Part shown: positions 17,745 to 22,761 of the stretch, piece after piece
Position numbering within the stretch: position 1 is the first letter of the stretch
Layout: each line of letters starts with the position of its first letter
Source: Hydrogenobacter thermophilus TK-6
GTDB lineage: Bacteria > Aquificota > Aquificia > Aquificales > Aquificaceae
NCBI RefSeq assembly: GCF_000010785.1
Contig: NC_013799.1
Location: 620,001 to 684,000, forward strand
Reading direction: 5' to 3'
DNA length: 64,000 nucleotides
Translations under genes and position numbers: made by a program
The notes under the pieces: model-generated
The model's database searches: none
What the model was told of the DNA's origin: nothing
The model's input: only the letters and a program-made list of their open reading frames with translations

Positions 17745-20431
17745 ATGAAGAAGAATAGGTCAAAGGGTATAGAGAAGCTTGCTGAGTTTGCCAAAAAGGA
17801 TATTGCGGAGGTGCTCACTATATTGGAAAGCTCCATTGATGGCATCACCAATCAAGAGGCAAAGAGAAGGCTTGAGATATTTGGTGCTAACGAGATAGTT
17901 CATGAAAAACCTCCACCTTGGTATGTAGAGCTGTTAAAAGCCTTCGTCAATCCCTTTATAGGCATCCTTATCTTCTTAGCGGTAGCGTCTTACATAACAG
18001 ATGTGCTTTTTGCACCCCCAGGCGAAGGGGATTGGAGCACCATAATCATCATATGTATTATGGTAGGTGTAAGTGGTGTCCTCCGCTTTGTGCAAGAGTA
18101 TAAATCCAAGACAGAAGCTCAGAAGCTAAAAGCTATGATACGCACCACCGCACTCGTCAGGAGAAAAGATGTAGGTACCATAGAGATAAACATTGATGAG
18201 GTAGTTCCGGGGGATATTGTTTATCTCTCCGCAGGGGATCTCGTTCCGGGAGACCTGAGGATCATACGCTCAAAGGACCTGTTCGTAAATCAGGCAGTTC
18301 TCACAGGTGAGTCGGAGCCAGTTGAAAAGTACGCAGAGCTGCCTGAAGATAAAAAACTTTCAAAAAGGCTCAGTCTGACAGACCTTGAAAACATGTGCTT
18401 TATGGGCACCAGCGTGGTGAGCGGTTCTGGTGTGGGAATAGTTGTAGCAACTGGCGAAAACACATATCTGGGTTCTGTGGCTGAGAGTTTGATGGGTCAG
18501 AGAGCTTTAACGAGTTTTGAGAAAGGCATCAATGAAGTAAGCAAACTCCTAATAAAGTTTATAGCCTTAGTATTTCCCATAGTTTTTGTTATAAACGGCT
18601 TAACAAAAGGTAACTGGTTTGATGCGCTCCTGTTTGCCTTGGCTGTTGCTGTAGGGATAACACCTGAGATGCTTCCCATGATAGTAACCGCAAATCTTGC
18701 CAGAGGTGCTGTTGCCATGGCAAGGCGCAAAACCATAGTTAAAAGGCTTGACTCTATACAGAATTTTGGGGCTATGGATGTGCTATGCACAGATAAAACT
18801 GGCACATTAACCCTTAACAAGGTAATCTTAGTAAAACATATGGATGTCCACGGGAACGAGGATGAAAGAGTGCTCCGGCACGCCTTTTTAAACAGTTACT
18901 ATCAGACGGGACTGAGAAACTTACTGGACATAGCCATCTTAGAGTATGGCAAAGAAAGAGGAATGGATGAGAGCATACTGGAGAGGGTTTATAGGAAGGT
19001 AGACGAAATACCCTTTGACTTTACCAGAAGGAGAATGTCTGTAGTTTTAGAGAGTGGAGTTGCGGGCAGTAAAAAGAGACAGCTCATCACAAAAGGTGCA
19101 GTAGAAGAAGTGGTATCTGTGTGCAGTTTTGTTGAGTACAGAGGGCGCGTCATTCCCCTCACAGAAGAGATAAAAGCCGAAGTTTTTAGGATGGTGGAGA
19201 AGTTGAACGAGGATGGTATGAGGGTGCTTGCAGTTGCTCAGAAAAACGACGTTTCACCTGAAGGTGTATTGGGGTCAAAGACGAAAATCATATGGTACTT
19301 ATGGGTTTTTTGGCTTTCTTGGATCCACCAAAAGAAACAGCTCCTTATGCCATCCATGCTCTAAAGACGCACGGTGTTGAGATAAAGATCCTAACAGGTG
19401 ACAACCCGGTGGTGACTAAAAAGATATGTAAGGAGGTTGGTATAGAGGTAAAGGGTGTTCTTTTAGGTGAGCAGATAGATAGCATGACGGATGAAGAGCT
19501 TATGGTAGTAGTAGACAGTACCACCATATTTGCCAAGCTTGCACCCACGCAAAAGGCAAGAATAATAAAAGTCCTAAGGAGAAAAGGGCATGTGGTGGGG
19601 TTTCTTGGAGACGGTATAAACGATGCTCCGGCTATGAGAGAAGCGGATGTAGCCATATCTGTGGACAACGCTGTTGACATAGCAAAGGAATCCGCAGACA
19701 TCATCCTGTTGGAAAAGAACCTTATGGTATTAAAAGATGGTGTTGTGGAAGGAAGGAAAACTTTTGCCAATATAGTAAAGTACATAGCTATTACAGCAAG
19801 CTCAAACTTTGGGAATGTTTTTTCCGTATTAATTGCCAGCGCTTTCTTACCTTTCCTGCCTATGACTCCTCTTCAACTCCTCTTTTTGAACCTAACCTAT
19901 GACCTTTCCATGACTTCCATGCCCTTTGATAGAGTAGATAGGGATTATGTAGAAAAGCCTAAGAAATGGAATGCGGAGAAAATAAAACACTTTATGCTGT
20001 GGTTTGGACCTGCAAGCTCTATCTTTGACATTTTCACTTACCTTATGCTGTTTTTCTTAGTAGGACCAGCAGTGTTAGGAGGCTCGTATTATAGCCTTCC
20101 CGCAGAGTTAAAGACGCAATTTGCATCTCTGTTTCAAACAGGATGGTTTGTTGAAAGCTTGTGGACCCAAACTATGGTAGTTTACATGCTGAGAACCAAG
20201 AGAATACCCTTCTTGGGGAGCTTCCCAGGTCTTCCTCTTTTCTTTTTGACGATGACAGCCCTTCTGGTAGACACCTTTGTGCCTTTTACAGTATTTGGCG
20301 AAAAGCTCGGTATGAGAGCTCTTCCACCCTTCTACTTTTTGCTGATACTTGTGCCCGCAATAGTAGGTTATCTGACATTAGCCCACTTCCTGAAAGGTAA
20401 GTTCTTAAAGCGCTACGGCGACCTGTTTTAA
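17745..20431 (+). pseudogene. mgtA: Mg2+-importing P-type ATPase (MgtA/MgtB type) interrupted by one frameshift
   Basis: Read in two frames, this is one full-length P3B-type ATPase of about 895 residues. The first frame (17745 to 19364) has the N-terminal cation-ATPase domain, TGES in the actuator, membrane helices and the phosphorylation motif DKTGTLT. Similarity stops at about 19277. It resumes in the -1 frame from 19280 (DENHMVLMGFLAFLDPPKET), with TGDNP, the hinge GDGINDAPAM and four C-terminal membrane helices to 20431. Adding one A to the run at 19277-19279 restores the whole frame. Either the gene is recently inactivated or the base was lost in sequencing; both halves show no further damage. 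Confidence 0.8.
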
Positions 20432-20475
20432 TTCCCCATCCTGCGCCCATCCTTTTTTTGATGAAAATATGTAAG

Positions 20476-20487
20476 TGATTACTATCA
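20476..20487 (+). promoter_or_regulatory. FNR/DNR-type operator
   Basis: The perfect inverted repeat TGAT-TACT-ATCA matches the core of the CRP/FNR-family site TTGAT-N4-ATCAA (8 of 10 positions). Its centre at 20481.5 is exactly 41.5 bases before a start point at about 20523 predicted from the -10 box TATACT at 20511-20516, the standard class II activator position. It controls the cytochrome c' operon. FNR, DNR or NnrR type regulators cannot be told apart from the site. Confidence 0.65.
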
Positions 20488-20510
20488 TAATTGAAGTCAG
20501 AGAAGAGGTT

Positions 20511-20524
20511 TATACTTATAAGGT
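20511..20524 (+). promoter_or_regulatory. -10 box of the cytochrome c' operon, leaderless start
   Basis: TATACT (20511-20516) is eight bases before ATG 20525 and no -35 box of normal type precedes it, as expected for an activator-dependent promoter. The message would begin at or one or two bases before the start codon. Confidence 0.5.
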
Positions 20525-20923
20525 ATGAGGAAAGTTTTTTTGTTGATGGTCTTCACCTTTCTGTGGGCGCATGCTGAGGAGGAACTCACCTTTAGACAGG
20601 TTATGCAGGTAGTCAACAGTGCGACTTTGCGCATGCTTGAAGGTTTTTTGATGAACAACGATGAGCTTATAATCCGTGGTGCTCAGGAGATAGCTCACCA
20701 TCCCATGCCAAAGGGTGGACCTCTGGCTTACATAGACCCATCCAAGAGGGAAGAGTTTGCAAAAGCTATGCCCACCTTTGAAAGGCAGGTACACGACTCT
20801 GCGGAGGAGGTCTTAAGGCTCATAAAGGAGAAAAGAAGGGATGAAGCTTACGAAAAGTTCAACTATATGGTAAAAGGTTGTATGGGATGCCACAGCTTAT
20901 TTAGGGATTACGGAAAGAGATGA
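20525..20923 (+). CDS. Cytochrome c'/c-556-like class II c-type cytochrome
   Basis: A cleavable signal peptide (about residues 1-17, ending AHA) is followed by a helical domain whose single heme-binding motif, CMGCH, lies near the C-terminus (about residue 119). That position is the mark of class II cytochromes, a four-helix bundle. Relatives bind NO and CO at a five-coordinate heme and help in NO tolerance; others (c-556) only carry electrons. The mature protein is periplasmic. It is first in a four-gene operon behind an FNR-type site, overlapping the DUF59 gene by four bases. NO binding is inferred from family and context. Confidence 0.8.
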   Translation: MRKVFLLMVFTFLWAHAEEELTFRQVMQVVNSATLRMLEGFLMNNDELIIRGAQEIAHHPMPKGGPLAYIDPSKREEFAKAMPTFERQVHDSAEEVLRLIKEKRRDEAYEKFNYMVKGCMGCHSLFRDYGKR

Positions 20924-21180
20924 GCAAAGAGAGGCTTCTGGAAGAATTAAAGAAAGTCATAGACCCACACACGGGAATGGATATAGTATCCATGGGGTTA
21001 GTAAAGAGTCTGGATGAGAGGGAAGGGAAGGTCAGAATCACCATAAAGCCCACAAGTCCCTTCTGTCCCGTAGGGGAGTACTTACTCAAAGCGGTTAGGG
21101 ACATTATTACCTCCATCGGTTATGAGGCGGATGTAAAGCTTGAGGATTATGCGTTTGGGGAGGATGCACATGAGGATTGA
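20920..21180 (+). CDS. DUF59/MIP18-family metal-sulfur cluster assembly factor
   Basis: The 86 residues match the MIP18/PaaD-like fold: an N-terminal helix, VIDPHTGMDIVSMGLVKSL, and the conserved motif TSPFCPVGEYL with the single reactive Cys. Family members (SufT, PaaD, MIP18) help to build or repair Fe-S clusters in particular proteins. It overlaps the cytochrome gene as ATGA and the next gene by 11 bases. No suf or isc genes are nearby, so here it probably serves partners encoded in this stress operon. Confidence 0.85.
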   Translation: MSKERLLEELKKVIDPHTGMDIVSMGLVKSLDEREGKVRITIKPTSPFCPVGEYLLKAVRDIITSIGYEADVKLEDYAFGEDAHED

Positions 21181-21637
21181 TGTAAGAGACCTTGAACCAC
21201 CACAGCCTATGATAAGGGTAGTTCAGGCTCTTGAGAAGCTCCAAGAAGGTGAGGTTCTTGAGGTTCTCGGCTCCAGACCCTTTACCCACCTTTTACCCAG
21301 GCTGTCCGAGATGGGATACGAATACCAGCTGGAAGAGACGGAGGAGGGGTACCTTCTGAAGGTATGGCACAGCGGAAAAGCTAAAGAAGAGAAATTATCT
21401 TTTGAGGAGCCAGAGTTTGAAATAAACGAGGATACGAATGTGGGTAAGCTCTTGGAAAGATTTCCACAAGCTCTTGAAATCCTCATAAGGTACGGCTTTA
21501 CTCCCCTTAAGAATCCTATTCTTAGGAAGATATTACCCTATACGGTTAGCCTTAAGCAGGCTAAGAAGATAAGAAGGATGTCAGACGAGAAGTTTCAGGA
21601 GATGCTCAGAGAGTTAAAGAAGTTAACGGAGAGATGA
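21170..21637 (+). CDS. DUF2249-DUF1858 protein
   Basis: The N-terminal 70 residues start with DVRDLEPPQPM and continue GEVLEVLGSRPFTHLLPRL, the DUF2249 pattern (TusA-like fold). A second domain at about residues 85-150, INEDTNVGKLLERFPQALEILIRYGF, is DUF1858, the fold also found at the N-terminus of ScdA/RIC proteins that repair Fe-S clusters after NO damage. The usual hemerythrin-like di-iron domain is absent, as is the DUF1858 Cys-Cys motif. ATG 21170 is chosen because GGGGAGG precedes it; a frame start at 21140 adds nothing conserved. It overlaps both neighbours. Confidence 0.8.
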   Translation: MRIDVRDLEPPQPMIRVVQALEKLQEGEVLEVLGSRPFTHLLPRLSEMGYEYQLEETEEGYLLKVWHSGKAKEEKLSFEEPEFEINEDTNVGKLLERFPQALEILIRYGFTPLKNPILRKILPYTVSLKQAKKIRRMSDEKFQEMLRELKKLTER

Positions 21638-22761
21638 TAAGACCTGCATCCTTTATAAAAACTACACCCCTTTACATACTCATCTTTTTCCTCCTTCTCC
21701 TGGCTTCGCTTTTGCAAAAGACTCTGGGCAAAAACTACACAGATACGCTCATATTCTTTGCATTTCCGGGGCTAATCTCTGGCACGCTCTTCCAGATATA
21801 CCCTACACTTCAGGGACATCCCTTCAGGGGTGAGCCATTAATTTATGTGCACTTGGCTGTGTGGTTTATTAACTTGCTCTTCTACTTCCTAAAGGGCAGT
21901 GTAAATCCCTACGCCTATTTGCTCCTTAGCTCTATACATACCGTGCTTGTACTTCTTAACACTAGGAAGATAAAGGACTCTGTTGTGCTTTTCTTCCTTA
22001 CGGGTAGCCTTTTTTACCTGCTTGCAGGTGTTTTGATAAAAGAAAACCCCATATTTGTGAAGCATCTTATCACCGTTGGGTACTTTATGCCCATAATAGT
22101 AGGCTCTTACTATGTGTTTGTACCCATGCTTCAAATAGAGGAACTAACAAAAAGGGGTTTAATCTGGTTAAATTTTCTTCTCCAGGTTGCCAGCTCTGTG
22201 CTGGTTCCCCTGTTCTGGTATATTTCTGATTACACGCTCCTGTCTTACTCCGGCACACTACTGCTTCTGTCCGTAGGTACGCTTTCTTACAGCGTTTACC
22301 ATATGCTGAGCCAGAGGAAAAGCCCCTTAAAGGGTCTTGATGTGTCAGTTCAATTTTTCATACTTGGTCTCTTTATGTGCTGGTTTTTTCTGCTGGTAGG
22401 TGTTCTCACTGCCGGTAGTGGAAACTTTGGTTTTTTCCAACTGCATTCCGATGGTATGCTCTACGGCTTTTTAACCGCCATAAGCGTAGGTGCATCTTAC
22501 CACATAATCCCCTTCCTACTCTGGTGGAGAAGGTACGCACCAAGAATGGGCAAGGAAAAAGTGCCTACCCTGAAGGAAGTGTTAAACATAAGCGTGGTAA
22601 AGAAGCTCCTTATACTCCTTCCTCCTCTAACAACGGGACTTTTCTTCGGAGACATGGTAAATCCCTATGTGGAAAAAGCCTTCTCCTTAGCTCTTTTCCT
22701 CTTGCTTGGCTATTACACAGTTAAGATTTTTCCTCTTGTTTTAAAAACCCTCAAAAGTTAG
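21634..22761 (+). CDS. Heme-copper oxidase/NnrS-like polytopic membrane protein
   Basis: A 375-residue protein with about ten to twelve membrane helices. Conserved-looking His residues sit in helices: His144 (KHLITVGYFMPI), His271 (LHSDGMLYGFLT) and His290 (GASYHIIPFLLWW). The H-x-YGFLT...YHIIP pattern resembles the subunit I fold of NO reductase and cbb3 oxidases and the NnrS heme/copper protein. Missing catalytic subunits and the operon partners suggest an NnrS-like role in resisting nitric oxide, or a quinol/NO-reactive protein, rather than a respiratory oxidase. It overlaps the DUF2249 gene by four bases. Confidence 0.7.
   Translation: MIRPASFIKTTPLYILIFFLLLLASLLQKTLGKNYTDTLIFFAFPGLISGTLFQIYPTLQGHPFRGEPLIYVHLAVWFINLLFYFLKGSVNPYAYLLLSSIHTVLVLLNTRKIKDSVVLFFLTGSLFYLLAGVLIKENPIFVKHLITVGYFMPIIVGSYYVFVPMLQIEELTKRGLIWLNFLLQVASSVLVPLFWYISDYTLLSYSGTLLLLSVGTLSYSVYHMLSQRKSPLKGLDVSVQFFILGLFMCWFFLLVGVLTAGSGNFGFFQLHSDGMLYGFLTAISVGASYHIIPFLLWWRRYAPRMGKEKVPTLKEVLNISVVKKLLILLPPLTTGLFFGDMVNPYVEKAFSLALFLLLGYYTVKIFPLVLKTLKS

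Follow-up and report, generated by a model that had tools for sequence, protein, structure and literature searches.

Related systems

To our knowledge, proteins with DUF2249 or DUF1858 domains and membrane proteins resembling heme-copper oxidases (HCO) are found with denitrification genes in both bacteria and archaea, and we know of no biochemistry for any of them. Here we describe a four-gene operon encoding proteins of these kinds, together with its promoter, from Hydrogenobacter thermophilus TK-6, a hydrogen bacterium that respires nitrate and possesses a nitrite reductase of the cd1 type (PMC3111988). It lies in a 64-kb window, bases 620001-684000 of the 1,743,135-base single-contig genome, and positions given below are those of the window unless another locus is named. 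The operon probably helps cells that are respiring nitrate to cope with nitric oxide (NO) and other reactive nitrogen species, under the control of a CRP/FNR activator and of a second factor acting at an overlapping dyad.

The nearest regulatory parallel is provided by the DNR, NnrR and NsrR regulons of denitrifying Proteobacteria, in which CRP/FNR-type boxes and separate NO-responsive operators likewise precede nir, nor, nnrS and dnrN/ytfE, the last two being standard members of NO regulons (PMC1274295). The Aquificaceae arrangement differs in its box, ATGAT-N4-ATCAT, in the overlap of that box with a dyad, GTAA-N4-TTAC, within one 22-bp element, and in having the parts of ScdA split over several genes. 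In the di-iron repair proteins ScdA/YtfE (RIC) (PMC9268430, PMC12412097) the ScdA_N (DUF542) and hemerythrin domains are those also found in the regulon described here, but in H. thermophilus they are encoded by separate genes and the operon itself contains neither.

DUF2249 proteins are induced during denitrification in Thermus, where drpAB encodes a DUF2249 protein and a DUF1858-DUF2249-DUF2249 protein and depends on DnrT (PMC6282519). The domains, the dependence on a regulator of nitrate respiration and the thermophilic host are shared with H. thermophilus, whereas the Thermus operon is bicistronic, has no cytochrome, DUF59 or membrane protein, and has been assigned a proposed role in nitrate sensing. 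In Haloferax mediterranei DUF2249 genes stand beside nirK, nor and nar, have a regulatory motif in common with these genes and are induced in denitrification (PMC11218638); the association with denitrification genes is the same, but the motif is archaeal (CGAAYATDKTYG) and the partners are different. An association of DUF2249 with HCO homologues is attributed to Pei et al. 2014 as cited in PMC11218638. HCO homologues and NnrS are reported to share with the membrane protein of the operon a fold of 12 transmembrane (TM) helices without the full set of metal ligands and a link to DUF2249 and denitrification; the protein described here differs in being 375 amino acids (aa) long, in having no Pfam NnrS match and in retaining only H144, H271 and H290 as invariant histidines.

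By analogy with these examples the kind of system can be regarded as known already. An earlier sequence-only reading of this DNA did not recognise the gene set as a named system. The association is in part known, since DUF2249 is tied to denitrification in Thermus and Haloferax, but the combination was not found described in the literature searched; nor were the altered box, the fused 22-bp element or the dispersed ScdA parts in Aquificaceae, and the searches found neither an NO regulon in Aquificales nor a motif of the 22-bp type.

The operon promoter

The relatives compared are Aquificaceae genomes labelled in the style G000, with G000 the genome under study. The elements of the promoter are as follows.

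20468..20489, + strand: 22-bp composite element TATGTAAGTGATTACTATCATA, 0 mismatches to TATGTAANTGATTACNATCATA
20471..20482, + strand: dyad GTAA-N4-TTAC, proposed second operator overlapping the box, one of five intergenic copies in ~322 kb of the genome
20476..20487, centre 20481.5, + strand: CRP/FNR-type box TGAT-N4-ATCA, TGATTACTATCA, spacing to the -10 fixed in most orthologous promoters
20511..20516, + strand: -10 element TATACT, 29.5 bp past the box centre, with TACCTT (G025) and TACATT (G051) at the same offset
20523, + strand: predicted transcription start, placed 7 nt past the -10

The sequence-only reading placed an FNR-type site 41.5 bp upstream of the start predicted from TATACT, and the distance was borne out (centre 20481.5, predicted start 20523). 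With a centre at -41.5 relative to that predicted start and a -10 element ~29.5 bp downstream, the promoter has the layout of a CRP/FNR class II promoter. The predicted leader is only 2 nt, the ATG of the cytochrome gene being at 20525; G025 and G051 share this promoter but have a longer leader, in which a good Shine-Dalgarno sequence precedes a start codon placed further downstream. A generic promoter scan of the operon region gave no more matches than in shuffles.

The site is a CRP/FNR-type TGAT-N4-ATCA box, as had been claimed, but it is not the canonical TTGAT-N4-ATCAA of FNR. Its outer bases are G and T (gTGAT...ATCAt) against the canonical T and A, and a scan of the window with TTGAT-N4-ATCAA, the pattern that the sequence-only reading had proposed for a search of the genome, therefore lists the operon box only at 2 mismatches; that scan revealed no excess of sites in the 64 kb (31 matches against 38 expected). 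A different picture emerged with TGAT-N4-ATCA, of which there are 37 copies genome-wide. Twenty-five of these are intergenic, against ~1.6 expected from the 4.4% of the published genome that is non-coding (95.6% being coding; PMC3111988, Table 3). A -10-like TAnnnT peaks 28.5-30.5 bp past the centre of these sites, occurring there in 13/24 site-gene pairs, where the background over all 3-bp offset windows has a mean of 3.3 (sd 2.9). Because of this excess, class II geometry is a genome-wide property, more than that of a single promoter, and is not due to chance. The consensus of the intergenic sites is TATGAT-N4-ATCATA; among their 50 half-sites the outer base is A in 32 and T in only four. 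With ~25 intergenic ATGAT-N4-ATCAT sites, the CRP/FNR regulon may well be a large one. At five sites the distance to the predicted start codon downstream is exactly 43.5 bp, a hint of very short or absent leaders.

The 22-bp composite element

Comparison of the operon promoters of relatives revealed that the box is part of a longer, 22-bp element, TATGTAAATGATTACWATCATA. At up to 3 mismatches, 27 of 64 Aquificaceae genomes contain it and the reversed pattern used as a control gave no match; a stricter version was found in 0 of 72 other Aquificota genomes. Eight other Aquificaceae genomes have it upstream of the operon or of variant forms: in seven of these (G025, G051, G028, G036, G038, G045 and G046) the 22-mer is identical while the flanks differ, and in G057 it has 2 mismatches. 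Among the copies listed, 12 have 0 mismatches despite differing flanks. The element is sometimes reversed relative to the operon, yet the distance from the box to a TAnnnT -10 is 28.5 or 29.5 bp in most orthologous or co-regulated promoters in both orientations of the 22-mer, and the CRP/FNR box is therefore the fixed part. At the hemerythrin genes of G058 and G061 the element adjoins the Shine-Dalgarno sequence, a position that does not fit class II activation there.

Its other targets are a gene for a 161-aa DUF2249 protein, bacteriohemerythrins, an HHE hemerythrin, and a 132-aa HCO-like gene that is followed by a cupin gene and then by a 66-aa ScdA_N (DUF542) gene. The 161-aa protein (locus L142, 4686-5171, and homologues) consists of an N-terminal domain without a Pfam match followed by DUF2249, the latter with an invariant NDHDPLPLYFQ motif, and its gene is the first of the operon in several relatives.

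The operon might instead be a general low-oxygen operon under a global CRP/FNR regulator, with no link specific to NO. ATGAT-N4-ATCAT does also precede NuoB-like, IscU/NifU-like, peroxiredoxin, ArsR-type and other genes (named by eye from their translations), but the 22-bp extension is present at only 3 of the 37 genome sites, one of them with two mismatches, and all three are by NO-type genes, while GTAA-N4-TTAC recurs at nirS and the putative nor genes. A general low-oxygen role is for these reasons regarded as highly improbable.

The second dyad

GTAA-N4-TTAC was scanned for in ~322 kb of the H. thermophilus genome. Fifteen copies were found, and all five that are intergenic precede NO-type genes. 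Apart from the copy at the operon, they stand before nirS, the putative nor genes, the gene of the 161-aa DUF2249 protein and that of a paralogue (28% identical) of the membrane protein. As the sample was partly picked for NO genes, this confinement is suggestive only and is not a genome-wide count. An operator common to the operon and to nir and nor genes is what characterises NO-responsive regulons of the DNR/NnrR/NsrR type. The exact dyad was also present in 31/437 upstream regions, a background that is inflated because most of the loci were taken around NO-type genes themselves; the four within-gene matches in the 64-kb window are a fairer guide.

At nirS the dyad lies within the 17-bp spacer of a perfect TTGACA/TATAAT promoter. 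It is exact at the same place in G025, G036 and G045 and has one mismatch in G038 and G046, so that both arms are kept while the N4 varies in 4 of 6 genomes and the other two have one mismatch. At the HCO paralogue it is near the start codon in many relatives. Both positions are typical of repressors, as judged from their placement. Compensating arm changes were sought by eye in the 22-mer copies of GTAA-N4-TTAC and none was seen, so the reading of it as a dyad rests on the copies at nirS, the putative nor genes and the HCO paralogue.

An unlikely alternative is that GTAA-N4-TTAC has no regulator of its own, being in its reversed form the TTTACA -35 hexamer and elsewhere a product of chance. 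It has in its favour that reverse-oriented promoters place TTTACA 16-17 bp upstream of a TAnnnT -10. However, the dyad is equally conserved in the forward orientation (G000, G025, G051), where a -35 role for the operon is impossible, and neither the conserved arms within the nirS spacer nor the dyad adjoining the start codon of the HCO paralogue is accounted for in this way.

The putative nor genes (locus L136, 13594-17072; genome ~158.6-162.1 kb) adjoin nirS and form an unusual cluster encoding a COX2-like protein and a pair of COX1-like proteins of 555 and 432 aa; at its head is a 58-aa open reading frame preceded by GTAA-N4-TTAC.

Products of the operon

The four genes of the operon are as follows.

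20525..20923, + strand: exported class II cytochrome c, cytochrome c'-like, 132 aa, CMGCH; signal-peptide-like N-terminus and C-terminal CxxCH
20920..21180, + strand: DUF59 / FeS_assembly_P protein, 86 aa; PF01883, E 1.9e-15
21170..21637, + strand: DUF2249(TusA-like)-DUF1858 protein, 155 aa; PF10006, E 1e-11, and PF08984, E 5e-15
21634..22761, + strand: 12-TM membrane protein of heme-copper oxidase fold, 375 aa; fold from an AlphaFold2 (AF2) model, no Pfam match

Because neighbouring genes overlap by a few bases, at ATGA-type junctions, the four very probably form one operon. The gene content put forward in the sequence-only reading (a class II cytochrome, a DUF59 protein, a DUF2249-DUF1858 protein and a 12-helix membrane protein) was confirmed by the CMGCH motif and the domain matches listed; the more specific labels fared less well.

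The CMGCH of the cytochrome is at residues 119-123. Its AF2 model has a mean pLDDT of 79 and its best matches in the PDB are cytochromes c' (TM ~0.63, with an E-value of only 0.018); the four-helix fold and C-terminal CxxCH of that group are both present. Pfam Cytochrom_C_2 stayed below its gathering score in all 10 homologues (best E 0.005; 0.016 for the protein in the window).

The DUF2249-DUF1858 protein contains no cysteine and is 68-75% identical in 12 relatives. Its description as an ScdA/RIC-type module was wrong, because ScdA_N is encoded by the separate 66-aa gene, near 1.12 Mb; ScdA/RIC proteins have DUF542 and hemerythrin in one polypeptide, and the operon includes neither.

The membrane protein had been called heme-copper/NnrS-like. 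The first half of this description holds, as the AF2 model (pLDDT 89, pTM 0.89) has the 12-TM fold of the heme-copper oxidase superfamily and is closest to cbb3 oxidase (TMq 0.77, probability 1.00; 0.57 for cNOR). The second half does not: Pfam PF05940 (NnrS) matched none of the 13 homologues, and the 132-aa relative reached only E 0.03. Heme-copper oxidases and NO reductases have six conserved metal-binding histidines, and here, with most metal ligands gone and three histidines invariant, the protein is unlikely to be an oxidase or an NO reductase; that it binds one heme is a guess.

Genomic neighbourhood

The genome carries nirS, oxidase/NO reductase-like genes and nitrate-reductase-like genes in addition to CRP/FNR regulators. 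In G036, G038, G045 and G046 a cytochrome-nosZ-nosL-nosD cluster (its nos domains tested in G036) diverges from the operon, the element is situated between the two, and nirS is ~15 kb away. In G024 and G014 the DUF2249 and membrane-protein genes adjoin molybdopterin and ferredoxin subunits resembling nar, and in loci L045 and L046 genes resembling an anaerobic ribonucleotide reductase and its activase are beside the DUF2249-membrane and nar-like genes. A hemerythrin is found within the operon in G009 and G016, and in G009 a protoglobin fusion as well. The enlarged operon of G009 (locus L043, 7289-12078) comprises a protoglobin-PsiE fusion, a hemerythrin and a 2-oxoacid:ferredoxin oxidoreductase-like pair. 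A role in denitrification or NO stress is supported because the second dyad stands at nirS, the putative nor genes and the membrane-protein paralogue, and because in relatives the operon borders nosZ or nar-like genes.

Such neighbours could also suit a sensor or maturation accessory for denitrification, in which the DUF2249 protein would act like DrpA/DrpB in nitrate signalling or in the maturation of nitrate reductase, and the denitrification enzymes would receive electrons from the HCO-like protein and the cytochrome. In Thermus, where DrpB depends on DnrT, double mutants show no anaerobic growth on nitrate and little nitrate reductase activity (PMC6282519), and the adjacency to nar-like genes in G024 and G014 is in keeping with this. 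The regulon, however, includes hemerythrins and ScdA_N, which are proteins of the repair/NO type, and both nirS and the putative nor genes are preceded by the second dyad, whereas the nar-like locus examined has a one-mismatch TGAT-N4-ATCA-like site before the large subunit and GTAA-N4-TTAC was not found there. We consider the accessory role rather unlikely.

Candidate regulators

Four proteins with a cyclic nucleotide-binding (cNMP) domain are encoded in the genome, and CRP/FNR regulators, which the sequence-only reading presupposed, are present. L002 (239 aa) has an orthologue in all 42 high-quality Aquificaceae genomes and, from that distribution, is the most likely regulator for the box. 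The only cysteine of L002, and of each of five orthologues checked, is at 140; the N-terminal cysteines with which FNR holds its [4Fe-4S] cluster are missing, and the recognition helix, VETTIR, is identical in the six orthologues checked. The isoleucine in place of FNR's serine in this helix could, we presume, suit the altered outer base.

L003 (224 aa) has an FNR-like recognition helix and, by eye, no FNR-type N-terminal cysteine cluster. Because G051 has a perfect element yet no protein matching L003, the latter was rejected as sole regulator of the 22-bp element. The only Rrf2-family protein of the genome, encoded near 213 kb, has three cysteines and is a candidate for the factor at GTAA-N4-TTAC. 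L004 (1447-1788) encodes a 113-aa cNMP-binding-domain protein without a DNA-binding domain, inside a nitrogenase-like gene cluster.

Proposed role

In the reading preferred here the operon would help the cell to tolerate NO and other reactive nitrogen species. Falling oxygen would cause an activator of the CRP/FNR family, for which L002 is the likeliest candidate, to switch the promoter on in class II fashion. GTAA-N4-TTAC would be bound by a second factor, in the simplest case a repressor responsive to NO, and this would link control of the operon with that of nirS and the putative nor genes. The exported cytochrome c'-like protein may carry electrons or bind NO, and the HCO-like membrane protein, having lost most catalytic ligands, might bind the heme suggested above. 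In the cytoplasm the DUF59 and DUF2249-DUF1858 proteins would help to mend or protect iron-sulfur proteins, perhaps alongside the ScdA_N and DUF2249 proteins that the regulon encodes in separate genes. The sequence-only reading had likewise proposed NO capture and Fe-S repair under an FNR, DNR or NnrR regulator; the CRP/FNR-type class II control and the NO/denitrification context (nosZ neighbours, hemerythrin and ScdA_N co-targets) agree with it, but the candidate regulator lacks the N-terminal cysteines of FNR.

Several observations weigh against this role. The 2-nt leader is odd. The cytochrome has an invariant Met27 that could coordinate the heme as its sixth ligand; a six-coordinate, c556-like heme is thus possible and would speak against NO binding of the c' type. 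Of 14 genomes with the operon 9-11 have nirS, a moderate association (P 0.04-0.004), and it is missing from G028, G051 and G057, which have the operon. G007, G014, G015 and G024 have no such element upstream of the operon genes.

We advance more tentatively, as a possibility, that the Aquificaceae have an NO regulon of their own. Its 22-bp element would unite the operator of a separate NO-responsive repressor with the binding site of a CRP/FNR activator other than FNR, and the ScdA/RIC repair machinery would be spread over several small genes whose products act together with HCO-like membrane proteins and a cytochrome c'. If this were true, CRP/FNR-type NO regulons would extend to the deep-branching Aquificaceae and the motif could be used to search for new members. 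A compact operon from a thermophile with a defined putative operator also offers stable proteins and a testable promoter.

Adjacent gene

Upstream of the operon a magnesium-type P-type ATPase (NCBIfam PRK15122) occupies 17745-20431 in two overlapping open reading frames of different frame, 17745-19364 and 19292-20431. The split is near a run of T and represents a frameshift, a sequencing error or a broken gene.

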